Shown one piece after another: positions 43,886 to 52,015 of a stretch of 64,000 bases of DNA (its first letter is position 1; every line of letters begins with the position of its first letter). Under the pieces are notes generated by a model, which was given only the letters and a program-made list of their open reading frames with translations, did not search any database and was not told the DNA's origin. The DNA comes from Methanomicrobiales archaeon HGW-Methanomicrobiales-2 (GTDB lineage Archaea > Halobacteriota > Methanomicrobia > Methanomicrobiales > Methanoculleaceae): contig PGYL01000006.1 of assembly GCA_002839645.1 (NCBI GenBank), forward strand, positions 1 through 64,000. The letters are read 5' to 3'. The position numbers and the translations under genes were made by a program.

Positions 43886-44839
43886 CTAACGAGCCTCTTC
43901 AAGCCGCTCCATCACTTCAGCAGTGATCCTGCGTATCTTTTTGACCGACTCGCGGAATCCGGCGACTTCGTCCTCTTCGAGGTTGAGCGGAACCGGGAAG
44001 ACGCCGTCACGGTTGATGCGGGCGGGCACGCCGATGCAGACATCGCCGATCCCGTGGATTTCGCGTCCTATGTGACTTGAGACGGTGAGGATACGGTTCT
44101 CGTCTCCGAGGATCGTCCGGACGAGCGTTGCAATCGCTTCTCCGGGCCCATAGACTGTAGAGCCCTTATCCCTGATGATCGCCTCGCCGCTCGTTTTGAC
44201 GGTGTCGACCATCTCCTGCACGGGCAGTCCCGAGAAGGTAGGCAGGTTGTTGATCCGGATACCGCCGATCGTTGTCGCCGACCAGAGCGGGACCATGCTA
44301 TCACCGTGCTCGCCGATGATACGGGTATGCACCTCACTGACGTGGACACGGAAGTATCGTGCAATCAGCGACTTCAAGCGCATCGAGTCGAGGTGCGTCC
44401 CGAGGCCGAAGACATGCCTTGACTGGAACCCCGAATACTTCAGGGCGACGGCGGTGATGACGTCGACGGGATTTGTCACGAGAAAGAGGATAGCATCGGG
44501 CGAAGACTGGCCGATCGTCTCGGCGGTCTCGGCGATGAGTTTCGCGTTCTCGAAGGCGAGGTCGTTTCGGTCCTGGCCGAGCTGACGGGGCACTCCCGCT
44601 GTACAGATGATAATATCCGAGTCTTTTGTATCCGCGAGATCGGTGCTGTACGAGAGCCGGATGTCGGTACCTCGGGCAGCAAATGAATCGGAAAGGTCAC
44701 GGCAGCAGCCCGCGAGAAAATTTTCACGCCCGGGTCTCCCGACGAGCAGCATGTCGCTGACGTACGGGATCTCGGATATGGTGTGGGCCGCAAATATGCC
44801 GACGTTCCCTGTAGCCCCAAGAATCGTTACTTTTGCCAT
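43886..44839 (-). CDS. mdh: Malate/lactate dehydrogenase
   Basis: A 317-residue NAD(P)-dependent dehydrogenase. The nucleotide-binding loop is TILGATGNVGIFAAHTI, with GATGNVG as in the archaeal MDH-like group. VTNPVDVITAVA and RIIGEHGDSMVPLWSA contain the catalytic histidine, and the substrate-binding arginine region is VGRPGREN-like. It interconverts malate and oxaloacetate most likely, though lactate cannot be excluded. ATG 44839 is right for the family; the frame continues upstream through the SRP RNA gene and that part is not coding. Confidence 0.9.
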   Translation of the reverse strand: MAKVTILGATGNVGIFAAHTISEIPYVSDMLLVGRPGRENFLAGCCRDLSDSFAARGTDIRLSYSTDLADTKDSDIIICTAGVPRQLGQDRNDLAFENAKLIAETAETIGQSSPDAILFLVTNPVDVITAVALKYSGFQSRHVFGLGTHLDSMRLKSLIARYFRVHVSEVHTRIIGEHGDSMVPLWSATTIGGIRINNLPTFSGLPVQEMVDTVKTSGEAIIRDKGSTVYGPGEAIATLVRTILGDENRILTVSSHIGREIHGIGDVCIGVPARINRDGVFPVPLNLEEDEVAGFRESVKKIRRITAEVMERLEEAR

Positions 44840-44852
44840 GGAGATCGCCGTT

Positions 44853-45158
44853 GGGGGCACGTCCTCGGTCGACCATGCGCACAGGCATTCACCACTGCAT
44901 CCCTCCTCCACCCCGCAACCCCATGGGCGCCGAACGTCCACGGTAAGTCTGCTCCCTTCCGGGCCTGAACCGGTACCCGCGGCAAAAGGTCGCCACCCCC
45001 TCCGGGGCTTTGATACCTCTCCGCCGACCTCATGGGACGAGGCTTCTCCGTCGGGACGCAGTGGATCCTGCAGGCCGCTGTGGCCTTCCTCAGACTTCGC
45101 CTCCCGCTAACGGCGGGTTCGGGGAACAGGTGACGCCGAGCCACCCAGGCTAGCCCCC
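44853..45158 (-). ncRNA. Archaeal SRP RNA (7S)
   Basis: About 306 bases on the minus strand. Near the 3' half, CAGGCCCGGAAGGGAGCAG (44949-44969 region) is the near-invariant domain IV loop of signal recognition particle RNA. The 5' end GGGGGC (45158-45153) pairs with GCCCCC at the 3' end (44858-44853), forming helix 1, and the length is normal for archaea. TTTTTATC at about 45182-45189 is a suitably placed TATA box. It binds SRP19 and SRP54 for membrane protein targeting. Ends are set by pairing and could shift by a few bases. Confidence 0.92.
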
Positions 45159-45172
45159 GTATATACTGGGGT

Positions 45173-46198
45173 CTATGGGATAAAAATAGCTCCGCCTACC
45201 GAAGCCCGCCAGGCACTGGTGATCTGCCCGACCTTCCCGGCGTCCGCCTTTTCAAAGAGGTCGAGGGCGGTAAGGTCGATTTCGGCCGGGAGGACGGTCG
45301 GGAGCAGCCGGAGATCGCCCTGGTAGACATGAGCCTCCTGCGTGCCGGCGGCTGTCGCGACCAGGATTGGGTCCCGCGCGACCGGTCGGCGACGGAGATC
45401 GTCGTAGGAACGGTGCATCGTCACCTCCCCGATCCCGAGGAACTCCCGGTTCACCTGGAGGTTGCATGCGGTCCAGTAAGCCGCTGCATACCAGGCGTCG
45501 TTCGCAATCACGCGCGGGACGCCCGCCCGGACGGCGGCAAGGCCGAGGGTGCCGGCGCCGGAGCAGGCGTCAACAAAGGTCCGGGGCCGATGCCGCCCGA
45601 TCTCCCGCTCGAGAGCCAGGATCTTTGGATCGCGGTCCCGGGGAAACTCGATATGCAGGGCCGACTGCTGCTTGTAAACGACGATGGGTCCCGCGCGGGT
45701 GTGAAAGATGTCGGCGCGGACGTCGCAACCCGCGAGCAGGGTGTACGCACCCGGCTCCGCGTCGGTATCTTTGATCCCCGGCGTCGCGGCACCCGTCCGG
45801 ACGACGCCACGGACCTCCGGGACCTCGGCGACCAGACGGGCAGCGGCCCGCTCGCCGACCGAGCGGGAGAGGAGGACGAGCGATCCCGGCGGGAGGTAGG
45901 GGGCTCTGTGCATCGCAGTCCCGGGATGAACGAGCGGCGTCCCGACAGCCGCGAGGGGTTCGGTCCCGACAAGGTCTCCTTCAGCGACCATCACCCGGTA
46001 GATCCGGGCAAAAACCTCGTCGATGAACCGCTTCCCGCAGGAAGGGCAGGGCTCCACGGTATCGATATCGGGCGGTGGGCTCTGCTTGTCATAGACGAGC
46101 CCCATACAGTCGGGACACGGGGCGAAACGCCCGGGAAGTTCCGTGAGGAGTGCGCGGGCGTCCGTGACGCAGTCGTGCCCGCAGACCGGACAATGCAT
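45173..46198 (-). CDS. Zinc-ribbon methyltransferase-like protein
   Basis: A 341-residue protein. The N-terminal 60 residues have two CxxC pairs (MHCPVCGHDC; APCPDCMG; EPCPSCGKRF), a zinc-binding region. The C-terminal half is a Rossmann methyltransferase-like domain: TFVDACSGAGTLGLAAVRAG is motif I, and VIANDAWYAAAYWTACNLQVN is the strand-2 acidic region with a tRNA-methyltransferase flavour. Substrate unknown; RNA is a reasonable guess. It ends 15 bases before the SRP RNA start. Confidence 0.78.
   Translation of the reverse strand: MHCPVCGHDCVTDARALLTELPGRFAPCPDCMGLVYDKQSPPPDIDTVEPCPSCGKRFIDEVFARIYRVMVAEGDLVGTEPLAAVGTPLVHPGTAMHRAPYLPPGSLVLLSRSVGERAAARLVAEVPEVRGVVRTGAATPGIKDTDAEPGAYTLLAGCDVRADIFHTRAGPIVVYKQQSALHIEFPRDRDPKILALEREIGRHRPRTFVDACSGAGTLGLAAVRAGVPRVIANDAWYAAAYWTACNLQVNREFLGIGEVTMHRSYDDLRRRPVARDPILVATAAGTQEAHVYQGDLRLLPTVLPAEIDLTALDLFEKADAGKVGQITSAWRASVGGAIFIP
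45182..45189 (-). promoter_or_regulatory. TATA box of the SRP RNA
   Basis: On the minus strand ATTTTTAT lies 24-31 bases upstream of the predicted 5' end of the SRP RNA. It falls inside the last codons of the upstream methyltransferase gene. Confidence 0.5.
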
Positions 46199-46232: not shown

Positions 46233-46625
46233 TCATGCCGGTTGCGGTGGGACTAGAAGCCCCTCCCGGAGCCAGCCCCAGGCATCCCGGAGGCGGTTCT
46301 CCGGGAAGTATCGCACGTCGACCCCGGCAAAGCCGACAAAGAGCCCCGGCAGGTGGTTCATCCATTCCCGCCACCGCTCTCCGCCGACTACGGCGATCCG
46401 GTCGACCCTCTCCAGACCTGGCCACTGTTTGAAGGCATCCCAGCCCTCCCCCGGCCTCCAGCTCCGGAAACTCTCGATTTTTAAGAGGATCCGGACGTTC
46501 TCGTGCTCTTCCATCGCTCGCTCGAGCTCGGGGATCAGGATGGTGGCGTAATCGCTCTCACTCAGCTTCCCATCAAACCGGAACCCGAGAACACTTCCTG
46601 AACTTTCCTTCATCCGGTCAAGCAT
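46233..46625 (-). CDS. SpoIIAA-like (STAS/SEC14-type) protein, copy A
   Basis: A 130-residue protein of the SpoIIAA-like family: GFRFDGKLSESDYATILIPEL, NVRILLKIESFRSWRPGEGW, VDRIAVVGGERWREWMNHLP and DVRYFPENRLRDAWGWL. These fold like STAS domains but are thought to bind lipid or small hydrophobic ligands rather than being phosphorylated. A close paralogue lies at 51614, and the DNA is nearly identical over about 70 bases of the middle. The region upstream holds inverted repeats and a gene remnant. Confidence 0.88.
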   Translation of the reverse strand: MLDRMKESSGSVLGFRFDGKLSESDYATILIPELERAMEEHENVRILLKIESFRSWRPGEGWDAFKQWPGLERVDRIAVVGGERWREWMNHLPGLFVGFAGVDVRYFPENRLRDAWGWLREGLLVPPQPA

Positions 46626-46969: not shown

Positions 46970-47160
46970 ACGGAACTGAAGATCACGATAGAGATCATCT
47001 TCGCCGTCGCTATCGTCTTCTTAGAGAAACCCCACAACGACAACGGCCTGGCTGATGGCCCCCTTCTTCCTGCCCCCGGTCGGGTTTGTGCTCTACCTGC
47101 TCTCCGGGCAGAACTCTGCCCGGTCAGAGGATGTTCGTCATCGAGGAACGGGTGCTGCTA
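46970..47160 (+). pseudogene. Decayed cardiolipin-synthase-type N-terminus (PLDc_N)
   Basis: Three pieces in successive frames join into a recognisable PLDc_N sequence: TELKITIEIIFAVAIVFLE (from 46970), RNPTTTTAWLMAPFFLPPVG continuing GFVLYLLSGQN (from 47025) and MFVIEERVLLREE (from 47131). In intact proteins FLE-RNPTTTxAWL is continuous and precedes a G-F-x-L-Y-L-x-x-G-Q-N turn, then an RMFxIK segment. The two frameshifts and the end at the ion-channel gene's stop mark it as a truncated pseudogene. The catalytic domain is absent. Confidence 0.7.
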
Positions 47161-49074
47161 CGGGAAGAGTGCCACGATGGCAATGAGCGCCGCAAGATAC
47201 GCCGCCGGGTAGAGCCAGATCATCAACCGGTCGATACGCTCCGCAATCTCCTTCTGTCTCTCCGTTGCCAGCCACTTCAGGTAGAGATTGTAGGCGACGG
47301 TTGCACCGGTGATCACGAAGATGGTGACCAGGATGGCATCAAGGAACGTGAGGTAACCGAGACGCGGCAGGTCCCCGGCGATGGTGAAGTTGAACGCAAT
47401 GAAGAGGAGCAGGTTGGCGCTCGCGACTTCGGCCCGTTTCCCGTAGTCCCTGAGGAGGAACGTGATGTAGGTCAACAGGACGATGATCAGGATCGGTACC
47501 AGGATACGGAAGATGTAGAAGGTCAGGTGGCGGGCCGCCTCGAAGTGGAAAGAGTAGCGGGAGTTCTGGGTGGTGATCGGGGTGCTGCTCACGTTGGTAC
47601 CGTATGCAGTGATGTACCACTCCTCCTCTCCGAGCTGGGTGCCTACGACGGTCTTCTCCGGCCAGGGCTCATAGACATATAGTTCTTCAGGGTAGAGCGA
47701 GTCGATGCGGATGTAGAAATCCTGGGTATCGAACGGGTAGGCCCTGAAGTTGAAGTCCGGGGCCTGCAGGGTCGTCCAGAAGTGCTCGAAGTAGGTGGCG
47801 GTGCCGTTGGGCTGCACCACGACGATCTGGTTCTGTGTCCAGCGCTGCGCCTGCTGGTTGTAGAGTGTGAACTCCGGCCAGCGTGACCCCTCGGCTGCGA
47901 CGAAATCGTCGATGCTCCGGTAGATCTTGACCCGGCAATTGCATTCATCCGGGCTGAACGCCAGGGCGGGGTCGGTCCATTCCATCCAGATGTTGGTCAC
48001 CACGGCGAAATTTTCGCAGACCTGATCCACGCTGGTGATCTGGTCTAGTTCGACGCCGACCTTGACCGGAATGGGCTCCTGCAGGACGGAGCGACCTCCG
48101 GGCGACTCGTTTCCCCCGAGCACGCCGGGGGCGTTCAGGCCGGTTAGCAGGCGGAAGTCTCCTGTCGTGTTGGCTCCGTTCAGCGGGCTGGCGAGCACCT
48201 CCAGCCGGTTGTTGCTGCTGGCGCCGGAGAAGGTGTACTGGAGCGTGGCGCTCGTCGTCCCCGTTGCAGGAGCCACCGCTGCGAGTGGCTTGCCGCCGTA
48301 GTCCCGCAGGACCATCGCCGGGATCAGGTTCCCGGAGGTCGCTTCGATGAAGGCGTAGAAGGTATCGTTCGTTTCTATTGGACTGAGGGTGTAGTAGGTC
48401 GATGTTCTGTTGGCGGAGAGGTTCCCCGTCACCTTCTGGACACCGAGGCGCATCTTCGAAACGGATGCATTCAGGATCGCGATGATGGCTCCGGTCGGTT
48501 CGGCCTGGCCGGCCAGCACCTGCGGGGCGTCGATCCCGATCAGGAGGCGGTAATCCCCGAAGGTCTGCTGGCGTTTTGCCGGAGAGCCGATTACGATCAG
48601 GAGATAGTCGCCGTCGGCGGGAATGCGGTGCTGCAGGGCGGAGTTGTAGGTGCCGTTCGTATCATCGTTCCAGGCGAGGAAGTACCGCCGGGCAGTCTCC
48701 GGGATCACCCTGAGCGGGTCCTCCCCTGCCGCCAGGGAGCGGTTCACGTCGTTTGCGAACTCGGTGCGCACCCGGCCCGGGGTGAGATCCGCGCTCGCTA
48801 CGGCAAGGAACGGGTCCAGGTCTCCTGACGTTCTCTCCGCATAGGCGTACAGGGTCTCTCCCGCCTGCAGGCCGGGGAGATCATAAACGATTGCCTGACC
48901 GGGTTCTATTCTCCCGGAAAGCTCCTGGGCGCCGGCATTATCCTGCATCTGGGCGGCCCCCGTGCCCATCAGTACGCCGAGCAGGAGAGCCAGGAAGAGC
49001 GCTCCCTCTACTGCACGGGCTCGACCGTTCCGGCTTCCCGGTTCCCGCACCGGCCATCCGGTCCGGGCATGCAT
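47158..49074 (-). CDS. Pentameric ligand-gated ion channel homologue with PPC-like domains
   Basis: A 638-residue protein. Signal segment at about 22-41; two tandem PPC-like beta domains at about 50-165 and 200-315; then a Cys-loop-family ligand-binding domain to about 500 with RAYPFDTQDFYIRIDSLYPE, the conserved YPFD turn. Four membrane segments follow: FYIFRILVPILIIVLLTYIT, a pore helix RAEVASANLLLFIAFNFTIA, FLDAILVTIFVITGATVAYN and WLYPAAYLAALIAIVALF. Prokaryotic pLGICs gate cations or anions on ligand binding. GGAG and a TATA box support ATG 49074. The ligand is unknown; PPC domains are unusual in this context. Confidence 0.88.
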   Translation of the reverse strand: MHARTGWPVREPGSRNGRARAVEGALFLALLLGVLMGTGAAQMQDNAGAQELSGRIEPGQAIVYDLPGLQAGETLYAYAERTSGDLDPFLAVASADLTPGRVRTEFANDVNRSLAAGEDPLRVIPETARRYFLAWNDDTNGTYNSALQHRIPADGDYLLIVIGSPAKRQQTFGDYRLLIGIDAPQVLAGQAEPTGAIIAILNASVSKMRLGVQKVTGNLSANRTSTYYTLSPIETNDTFYAFIEATSGNLIPAMVLRDYGGKPLAAVAPATGTTSATLQYTFSGASSNNRLEVLASPLNGANTTGDFRLLTGLNAPGVLGGNESPGGRSVLQEPIPVKVGVELDQITSVDQVCENFAVVTNIWMEWTDPALAFSPDECNCRVKIYRSIDDFVAAEGSRWPEFTLYNQQAQRWTQNQIVVVQPNGTATYFEHFWTTLQAPDFNFRAYPFDTQDFYIRIDSLYPEELYVYEPWPEKTVVGTQLGEEEWYITAYGTNVSSTPITTQNSRYSFHFEAARHLTFYIFRILVPILIIVLLTYITFLLRDYGKRAEVASANLLLFIAFNFTIAGDLPRLGYLTFLDAILVTIFVITGATVAYNLYLKWLATERQKEIAERIDRLMIWLYPAAYLAALIAIVALFP

Positions 49075-49122
49075 CAGGTTCGCTCCGTCAGCAGTCCAAT
49101 CACCTCGTAGACGATATCTATT

Positions 49123-49131: not shown

Positions 49132-49209
49132 GGGGTTCGATCGCAAATTTCGGTTGATTGCATTACTATTGCCAATATATTATATTTTGGGGGACGTGCG
49201 GTCTATCGG

Positions 49210-50250
49210 TCACCGGGGCGGTTCTCCGGTACTTTCGATATCGTTGGACGGCTCCATCAATACTGCCAGCCACCGCGTCTCTTCCGAGATCGCCAGCATC
49301 GCCTTTACCATCAGGGTCAGGGGAGCACCCAGGAACAGTCCCGGTACGCCGAGCACCAGCGTCCAGGCGAGGACCGAGAGGATGATCACCAGCGGGGAGA
49401 TCCCGAGCGCCTTCTCGGCAGGGTACGGCATGAGTGCCCGGCTGACAAACAGGTCGATGACGAAGATGCCGACCGCGACGGCGAGCGCTCCCGGGAGCCC
49501 GTACTGGAGCCAGGCAAGACTTATCGGGGGCACCGAGGCGATGGGCCGCCCGAAGTAGGGGATGTAGCCGAGTACGACAATGAGGACCGCCCAGAGCACC
49601 GGGGCGTCGATCCCGAGGAGCAGCAGGAGCATCGCCACAGCGATACCGGTGGCAAGGCCGCCCCGGGTGCTGAGGGACGCATATGCAGCCAGATTACTTG
49701 CGGAACGGCTGAGTTCCGCCATGGCGTCGGATCCCAGGCTTCGCACGAGTTTCGAGCGAAAAGAGGCTACCTCCAGGAGCATGAAGACCGTCACGATCAG
49801 GATAACCAGAAAATCGATGGCCAGAACGGAGAGTCCGGCGAGGATCTCCCAGAGTGGCGGGATGAACACGGATCCGTTCGGCGCTTCGAGTGGTTGCACC
49901 GATACCGGAATTCCCCGGCCTGCAAGCCATGACTGCAACTCCTCGAGCTGTGCTTGCAGAAGATCCTGGTAGGCGGGCAGGGCGCTGTCGAGTTCGATCA
50001 GAGACAGGCTGAAGACTGCGACGAGCACCAGGGCAGCCCCGGCGATCGCCCCGATCATCGCCAGCACCGCCCCCAACCGGGGCAGTCCCCGCCCTTCCAG
50101 GCGATGCACGGTCGGCGTGACAATGACCGCCAGGATGAACCCGACGAGCACCGGGTTGACGACCGGGGCGCCGAGGTACATTCCGGTGACGGCGATGGCA
50201 CCGATGACGATAACCCGGGTGAGGGGTGCGAGGCGGAACGGAGCGGTCAT
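49210..50250 (-). CDS. AI-2E family transporter, copy A
   Basis: A 346-residue membrane protein of the AI-2 exporter/UPF0118 family. It has two N-terminal membrane segments, an extracytoplasmic loop (about 100-170), and a cluster of membrane helices. The motif SVPPISLAWLQYGLPGALAVAVG and the end VLGVPGLFLGAPLTLMVKAM are typical. Members export small molecules or act as Na+(Li+)/H+ antiporters; the substrate here is not known. A paralogue is at 54044. ATG 50250 is the family-like start; longer upstream codons look non-coding. Confidence 0.88.
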   Translation of the reverse strand: MTAPFRLAPLTRVIVIGAIAVTGMYLGAPVVNPVLVGFILAVIVTPTVHRLEGRGLPRLGAVLAMIGAIAGAALVLVAVFSLSLIELDSALPAYQDLLQAQLEELQSWLAGRGIPVSVQPLEAPNGSVFIPPLWEILAGLSVLAIDFLVILIVTVFMLLEVASFRSKLVRSLGSDAMAELSRSASNLAAYASLSTRGGLATGIAVAMLLLLLGIDAPVLWAVLIVVLGYIPYFGRPIASVPPISLAWLQYGLPGALAVAVGIFVIDLFVSRALMPYPAEKALGISPLVIILSVLAWTLVLGVPGLFLGAPLTLMVKAMLAISEETRWLAVLMEPSNDIESTGEPPR

Positions 50251-50479
50251 GGTCGTCTCCCTCTCGCAGGCAGGGATGCCGGGCTCCCCCGGAAAGATCC
50301 GCTGTTCTTCTGTCTTCCCATGTCGATCCTCTACACTTCCGTCTCCCCGTTTGCCTCCCTCCTGATTATACTGTCGCCGAGTGCCTCCCTCGAGAACCGC
50401 CCGGGACAACCCGGTGGACACCGTCGGGTCGGTCTCCATAGCCTGGGTGTGAGACAAGCGCGCCGATCAGGGGCCTGAA

Positions 50480-51613: not shown

Positions 51614-52015
51614 CTATTGCACCTCAACGACAGTCCCTTCGGAGGCTATCGGCTCCCGCAGCCAGTCGAGGGCGCCGTCCAGGTGGCCTTCGGTGAAGTA
51701 TCGCACATCGACCCCGACAAAGCCGACAAAGAGCCCCGGCAGGTGGTTCATCCACTCCTCCCACTTCTCCCCGCCGGCGATCGCGATCCGGTCGACCCTC
51801 TCCATACCCGGCCAGTCCTTGAGGGTCTCCCAGTACCCGTGCGTCTTCCAGCCGTGGAAACTCACGATCTGGAAGAGTATCCTGAGGACCGGATGGTTTT
51901 TTCTCGCTCCATCAAGTGCCGGTATCAGCGCCCCGTTGTAATCGCCGGCAGTCATCTCGCCGTTGAACCGGAACCCGACGACGTTCTCTGCACCTGTCTC
52001 CATCTGCTCAAGCAT
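51614..52015 (-). CDS. SpoIIAA-like (STAS/SEC14-type) protein, copy B
   Basis: A 133-residue paralogue of the protein at 46233. It has GFRFNGEMTAGDYNGALIPAL, VLRILFQIVSFHGWKTHGYW, RVDRIAIAGGEKWEEWMNHLP and LFVGFVGVDVRYFTEGHL. The central part is nearly identical to copy A even at the DNA level, while the ends diverge, suggesting recent duplication or gene conversion. It may bind a hydrophobic ligand. Confidence 0.88.
   Translation of the reverse strand: MLEQMETGAENVVGFRFNGEMTAGDYNGALIPALDGARKNHPVLRILFQIVSFHGWKTHGYWETLKDWPGMERVDRIAIAGGEKWEEWMNHLPGLFVGFVGVDVRYFTEGHLDGALDWLREPIASEGTVVEVQ

Follow-up and report, generated by a model that had tools for sequence, protein, structure and literature searches.

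Structures of the two N-terminal domains (NTD1 and NTD2) of DeCLIC, a pentameric ligand-gated ion channel (pLGIC) from Desulfofustis sp., have reportedly been solved since 2020. As late as 2025, DeCLIC was referred to as the sole pLGIC whose NTD had been partially characterized, two inserted helices were described for its NTD1, a collagen-binding domain was named among the fold neighbours of the NTD, and the physiological context of the channel was called poorly characterized (PMC12664993). Its calcium ligands are D76, D123, and D124 in NTD1 and, at the interface of the extracellular domain (ECD), E347 together with E479-E481 of loop F (PMC12664993, PMC9897478). The gates of DeCLIC are L554 (9') and F561 (16'), and its cation selectivity is based on two acidic rings (PMC9897478). 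In the open-licence literature that we searched, no paper dealt jointly with Methanoculleus and ligand-gated ion channels, and the presence of DeCLIC-type channels in methanogens, the conservation of their calcium sites, and their gene neighbours were not described.

We analysed a window of 64,000 nucleotides from a methanogen assembly of 2.78 Mb in 69 contigs. The gene at positions 47158-49074 of this window encodes a pLGIC subunit of the DeCLIC type with 638 amino acid residues; it lies on the minus strand, as do all of its features given below, and runs exactly from an ATG at 49074 to a TAG at 47158. A TTG start giving 662 residues was considered and dropped, the conserved ATG with its GGAG being preferred. 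A Pfam search of the protein found Neur_chan_LBD (PF02931) as the sole family, over the curated cut-off at residues 332-505 (E = 6.9e-12), with the Pfam transmembrane model marginal (E = 0.95). Against PDB sequences, phmmer aligned residues 38-633 with DeCLIC (E = 6e-128, 37% identity), and gave about 1e-77 for sTeLIC, over the core only, and about 1e-22 for GLIC. An AlphaFold2 (AF2) monomer prediction, for which the alignment consisted of 48 sequences, all from the window or from retrieved loci, reached a pLDDT of 86.5 and a pTM of 0.77, superseding a single-sequence run with a pLDDT of 39.8. The model comprises a signal helix, two beta lobes, a beta-sandwich ECD, and four membrane helices. 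When it was compared with the PDB using Foldseek, the top 20 matches were all DeCLIC (TM up to 0.76/0.81); sTeLIC matched with a TM of 0.90 over the sTeLIC length and GLIC with about 0.82 on the core. Judged from these alignments and the model, the gene is a full-length homologue of DeCLIC, and what is new here is an archaeal branch of an already known channel type.

The original prediction of a pLGIC homologue in a methanogen was thereby borne out; the YPFD turn, the ligand-binding domain, and the four membrane helices with a pore-type second helix that it named were all found, and the check that it proposed on the membrane part, run on the AF2 monomer with Foldseek, gave the pLGIC fold. Its label of a Cys-loop-family receptor is right for the superfamily, since the protein has the PF02931 domain, the Pro-loop proline (P447, kept in 48/48 relatives), the aromatic-P-F-D motif, and four transmembrane helices with a pore-lining M2. 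The label fails for the cysteine pair: the only cysteines are residues 353, 378, and 380, none of them at the loop, so that the eukaryotic Cys-loop pair is absent and the sequence places the protein in the Cys-less (Pro-loop) branch.

The protein begins with a signal peptide region (residues 1-43; 48946-49074), where the model has a hydrophobic helix at residues 16-45 and which is kept in the orthologues. NTD1 (residues 46-192; 48499-48939) was delimited by phmmer, the secondary structure of the model, and site conservation as a jelly-roll lobe with two inserted helices, and this piece alone matched DeCLIC NTD1 in phmmer at 8.6e-22. NTD2 (residues 193-328; 48091-48498), a second jelly-roll lobe, follows from the full-length DeCLIC alignment and the model. 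The canonical extracellular, or ligand-binding, domain (residues 329-515; 47530-48090), defined by PF02931 and conservation, contains the Pro-loop YPFD without a Cys pair, E354, and the loop F motif QLGEEE (residues 480-485; 47620-47637), which aligns with DeCLIC Q476-E481, is near-invariant in 48 relatives, and would form the acidic half of the predicted interface calcium site. The transmembrane domain (TMD; residues 516-638; 47161-47529) holds M1-M4 as model helices 517-540, 544-566, 577-602, and 605-636. In the pore helix M2 (residues 544-566; 47377-47445), the DeCLIC numbering and conservation place E549 at 2', L556 at 9', and F563 at 16'.

The original prediction had also assigned two extra N-terminal beta domains to a PPC-like type, noted that such domains usually bind sugars or proteins, and suggested that ligand sensing may therefore be unusual. 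Two such domains are indeed present, at residues about 46-192 and 193-328, but the sequence evidence for a PPC identity is weak: Pfam gave no match of PPC (PF04151) to NTD1 or NTD2 of the channel, sub-threshold matches occurred in two relatives only (E = 0.0045 and 0.17), and PPC membership was dropped for want of Pfam support. Because the whole protein aligns with DeCLIC and the AF2 model matches DeCLIC best, the pair corresponds to NTD1 and NTD2 of DeCLIC. The same pair being already present in DeCLIC, it is not a peculiarity of this protein, and a sensing of sugars or proteins by these domains found no support, whereas calcium binding did.

The DeCLIC ligands D76, D123, and D124 correspond to D87, D137, and D138 in the archaeal channel, and E347 and E479-E481 correspond to E354 and E483-E485. 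Across a set of 48 relatives, drawn from archaea and from several phyla of bacteria, the acids of predicted calcium site 1 in NTD1 are kept in 47/47 (D87), 48/48 (D137), and 44/48 (D138) sequences. E354 of predicted calcium site 3 is kept in 47/48; E483 and E485 are each present in 48/48, and E484 in 45/48, with Asp in the other three. The protein has two marks of the DeCLIC type, homologues of NTD1 and NTD2 and the acids of calcium sites 1 and 3; through the family-wide invariance of these acids, what was seen in one protein becomes a rule that can be tested. The gates are similarly conserved (9' L556 in 48/48, 16' F563 in 47/48). Position 2' is acidic in 47/48 relatives and a second acid, D543, is kept in 46/48; from the sequence, we infer that these two positions may be the two acidic rings meant for DeCLIC.

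We favour, with a probability of roughly 60%, a calcium-inhibited, cation-selective pentameric channel that is opened by the loss of external divalent cations, possibly also by acid or another ligand. This reading starts from the observed full-length homology, monomer fold, residue conservation, and purifying selection, and borrows the pentamer, the calcium block, the cation selectivity, and the direction of gating from DeCLIC by analogy. The protein would be exported, with NTD1, NTD2, and the ligand-binding domain outside, and its subunits would assemble into a homopentamer or possibly, with a paralogue, a heteropentamer. At each subunit interface, calcium or another divalent would link loop F to the beta1-beta2 loop of the adjacent subunit; it would also bind NTD1 and keep the channel shut at the rings of 9' Leu and 16' Phe. 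Loss of the external divalent, protonation of the acids, or another ligand would then free the NTDs, so that a cation-selective pore would open, its inner mouth lined by the acidic rings. Calcium depletion activates DeCLIC, but calcium-free DeCLIC still had closed pores in cryo-EM (PMC12664993); depletion may therefore not be the full trigger.

The conserved acids would bind other divalents or protons too, and acid is a competing trigger because, according to the PDB titles, DeCLIC structures obtained at pH 5 are open both in the presence and in the absence of calcium (9fth, 9fti). The same pLGIC might be gated mainly by protons, by acid as in GLIC or by alkaline pH as in sTeLIC, with the acids as pH sensors and calcium as a modulator only. 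The core is near that of sTeLIC (42% identity; PDB title 'gated by alkaline pH') and related to GLIC, and DUF308 (HdeD-like) membrane proteins adjoin some orthologues. However, the acids of NTD1 and of the ECD interface are kept as a set, up to the invariant D137, and pH sensing alone needs no such set; we consider proton gating unlikely, although it is the strongest competitor. Somewhat less probable in our view is a small organic ligand, such as an amine, a carboxylate, or a sulfated or glycan-derived compound, in the canonical pocket, with the NTDs delivering or sensing it. A structure of sTeLIC with phenethylamine exists (9ewa), ligand-binding N-terminal fusions have been described in other prokaryotic pLGICs by Tasneem et al. 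(PMC549065), and several relatives have sulfatase and glycosidase genes nearby; against this, the NTDs have no significant match to known ligand-binding families in Pfam.

The dN/dS against relatives was about 0.23-0.35 over the channel gene, indicating purifying selection, which was strongest in the ECD (0.16-0.24). An alignment of 10 upstream regions revealed a promoter block, CAAAAT(A/G)TAATATATTGGCAATA (49159-49189), with a TATA-like element about 101-108 nt 5' of the ATG; the block is kept in 9/10 orthologues, including two with an otherwise different upstream region. A GGAG ribosome-binding site 8 nt 5' of the ATG (49083-49086) is kept in 10/10, so that conservation backs the TATA box and ribosome-binding site that had been proposed for this gene. 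Rfam detected no known RNA or riboswitch in the channel leader. That the protein no longer conducts ions and is merely a relic or decoy with a structural or binding role might be suspected from the patchy presence in the genus, a degenerate NTD1 remnant and a frameshifted copy in relatives, and the disrupted AI-2E gene beside the paralogue, but it is very improbable given the open frames, the dN/dS values, the invariant pore and gate residues, and the conserved promoter.

A second DeCLIC-type pLGIC with 71% identity is encoded in the same genome (contig C33, about 63094-64977, minus strand). It adjoins a disrupted AI-2E gene and a DUF308-like gene, and its nearest relative is a gene of Methanoculleus FWC-SCC1 at the syntenic site of the window. 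Diagnostic sites divide the window gene in two: before residue 491, 299 sites are orthologue-like and 13 paralogue-like, and in the C-terminal segment that starts at about residue 491 (47161-47604), 11 are orthologue-like and 25 paralogue-like. Before this switch, the DNA is about 70% identical to the gene's own paralogue and about 93% identical to the orthologues; after it, the values are 91% and 83%. The pattern of sites makes gene conversion between both copies, or between their lineages, the likely source of this mosaic. The gene would thus represent a naturally occurring exchange of the transmembrane part close to the outer-domain boundary, of a kind that channel biophysicists otherwise make by hand.

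Full-length DeCLIC-type genes, counted as matches with E < 1e-150, occur in 19/393 genomes of a phylum sample (20 genes). When 84,980 species genomes were scanned, at least 73 loci were detected, a lower bound because the scan was pattern-limited, with hosts including Methanoculleus, Methanofollis, Methanolinea, Methanotrichaceae, many Chloroflexota, proteobacteria, Nitrospirota, Xenococcus, and Desulfofustis PB-SRB1, which we take to be the source lineage of DeCLIC. Plasmid carriage was rejected, as no match was found among 72,556 plasmid records. In a 56-row tree, from a quick search without bootstrap in which several deep forks were weak and the outgroup was non-monophyletic, the 15 archaeal rows formed a single clade with an SH-aLRT of 100, placed among Chloroflexota, and this nesting suggests one old transfer into methanogens. 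The place of the mosaic window gene within the archaeal clade is a mixture, and the clade rests on many other rows. Many close relatives, including several species of the genus, have no channel gene, and in one (G011) the next conserved gene (45173-46198 in the window) comes immediately after the AI-2E gene; the channel is therefore accessory. The degenerate NTD1 remnant (G031:C5:17975-18202) is apparently a decayed second channel gene. Other members of the host order carry short pLGICs without NTDs, at three loci.

An AI-2E family transporter gene (49210-50256, minus strand; PF01594, 4.8e-38) lies 135 nt upstream of the channel, and the pair also occurs in other Methanoculleus. We rejected AI-2E as an obligate partner, since G011 has it without a channel and other channel loci lack it. 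Sulfatase genes lie within 5 kb of the channel in 6/40 loci versus 0.33 expected from each genome's own sulfatase count (P about 6e-7, or about 3e-4 with three Desulfobulbales-type loci taken as one), P values that are optimistic because the family was picked after seeing the loci and the other loci are still related by descent. The distance is 1.8 kb in Desulfofustis PB-SRB1 and 1.5 kb in a gammaproteobacterium, where this gene is the only strong sulfatase match in the genome. In various bacteria, sulfatases lie 0.4-3.3 kb from DeCLIC- or TeLIC-type channels (L051, L076, L077, L086, L097, and L098), and a HAD-family gene adjoins the sulfatase in L076 and L086. Archaeal and Chloroflexota channels recurrently have DUF1269-like genes nearby, and every DUF1269 match of two Chloroflexota genomes adjoins the channel. 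P-type ATPase genes, whose closest PDB match is a calcium pump, stand beside the channel in four loci, of a Methanofollis and three Chloroflexota; the best PDB match of the one in L044 is the calcium ATPase lmo0841 (9.8e-40).

These neighbours are leads on function, not proof. It is conceivable, though doubtful, that DeCLIC-type channels are part of a transferable set of cell-envelope genes common to bacteria and methanogens, comprising a sulfatase, a GH63/MGH1-like glycosidase, DUF1269, an AI-2E transporter, and sometimes a calcium-type P-ATPase, in which they would sense the loss of surface divalents; if true, this would be the first physiological role for such channels. Methanogens with one or two copies, gene-free relatives with the flanks kept, the bacterial-to-archaeal tree, and the recurrent sulfatase neighbours provide natural comparisons.

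Elsewhere in the window, two SpoIIAA-like (PF11964) proteins, 55% identical, are encoded at 46233-46625 and 51614-52015 (minus strand) and flank the AI-2E, channel, and PHP genes. Downstream of the channel, about 150 bases (46996-47147) match several other sites in the genomes of relatives and are possibly a small membrane-protein gene. An archaeal SRP RNA gene (44851-45160, minus strand; Rfam RF01857, 180.7 bits) overlaps the start of a 351-residue dehydrogenase-like open reading frame (43886-44941), the true start of which is therefore probably an internal ATG (MAKVTILGATGNVG).

Among known archaeal channels, the pLGICs of Methanosarcina (PMC549065) and those later reported in ten further genera of archaea, Thaumarchaeota among them (PMC4795631), belong to the same superfamily, but the N-terminal domains reported in Methanosarcina are Cache and MCP-N. 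GLIC/ELIC-type channels share the Pro-loop without cysteines and M1-M4, but have no NTDs; GLIC is proton-gated and shows 26% identity to the archaeal channel. The sTeLIC core of ECD and TMD, at the 42% identity given above, shares the EEE of loop F and a DLPRLGY motif, whereas sTeLIC is without NTD1 and NTD2. DeCLIC (PDB 6v4a, 6v4s, 7q3g/h, 9ev1-9evb, and 9ftg-9ftj) has in common with the archaeal channel the order signal-NTD1-NTD2-ECD-TMD, the two inserted NTD1 helices, identical calcium-coordinating acids, the pore residues 2' E, 9' L, and 16' F, and the outer-vestibule Trp (W412, equivalent to W407). The archaeal channel differs from it in overall sequence (37% identity), in N405 of the vestibule constriction, which is replaced by Gln, in a TMD that appears to have been exchanged between paralogue lineages, and in its host, a methanogen with two paralogues.
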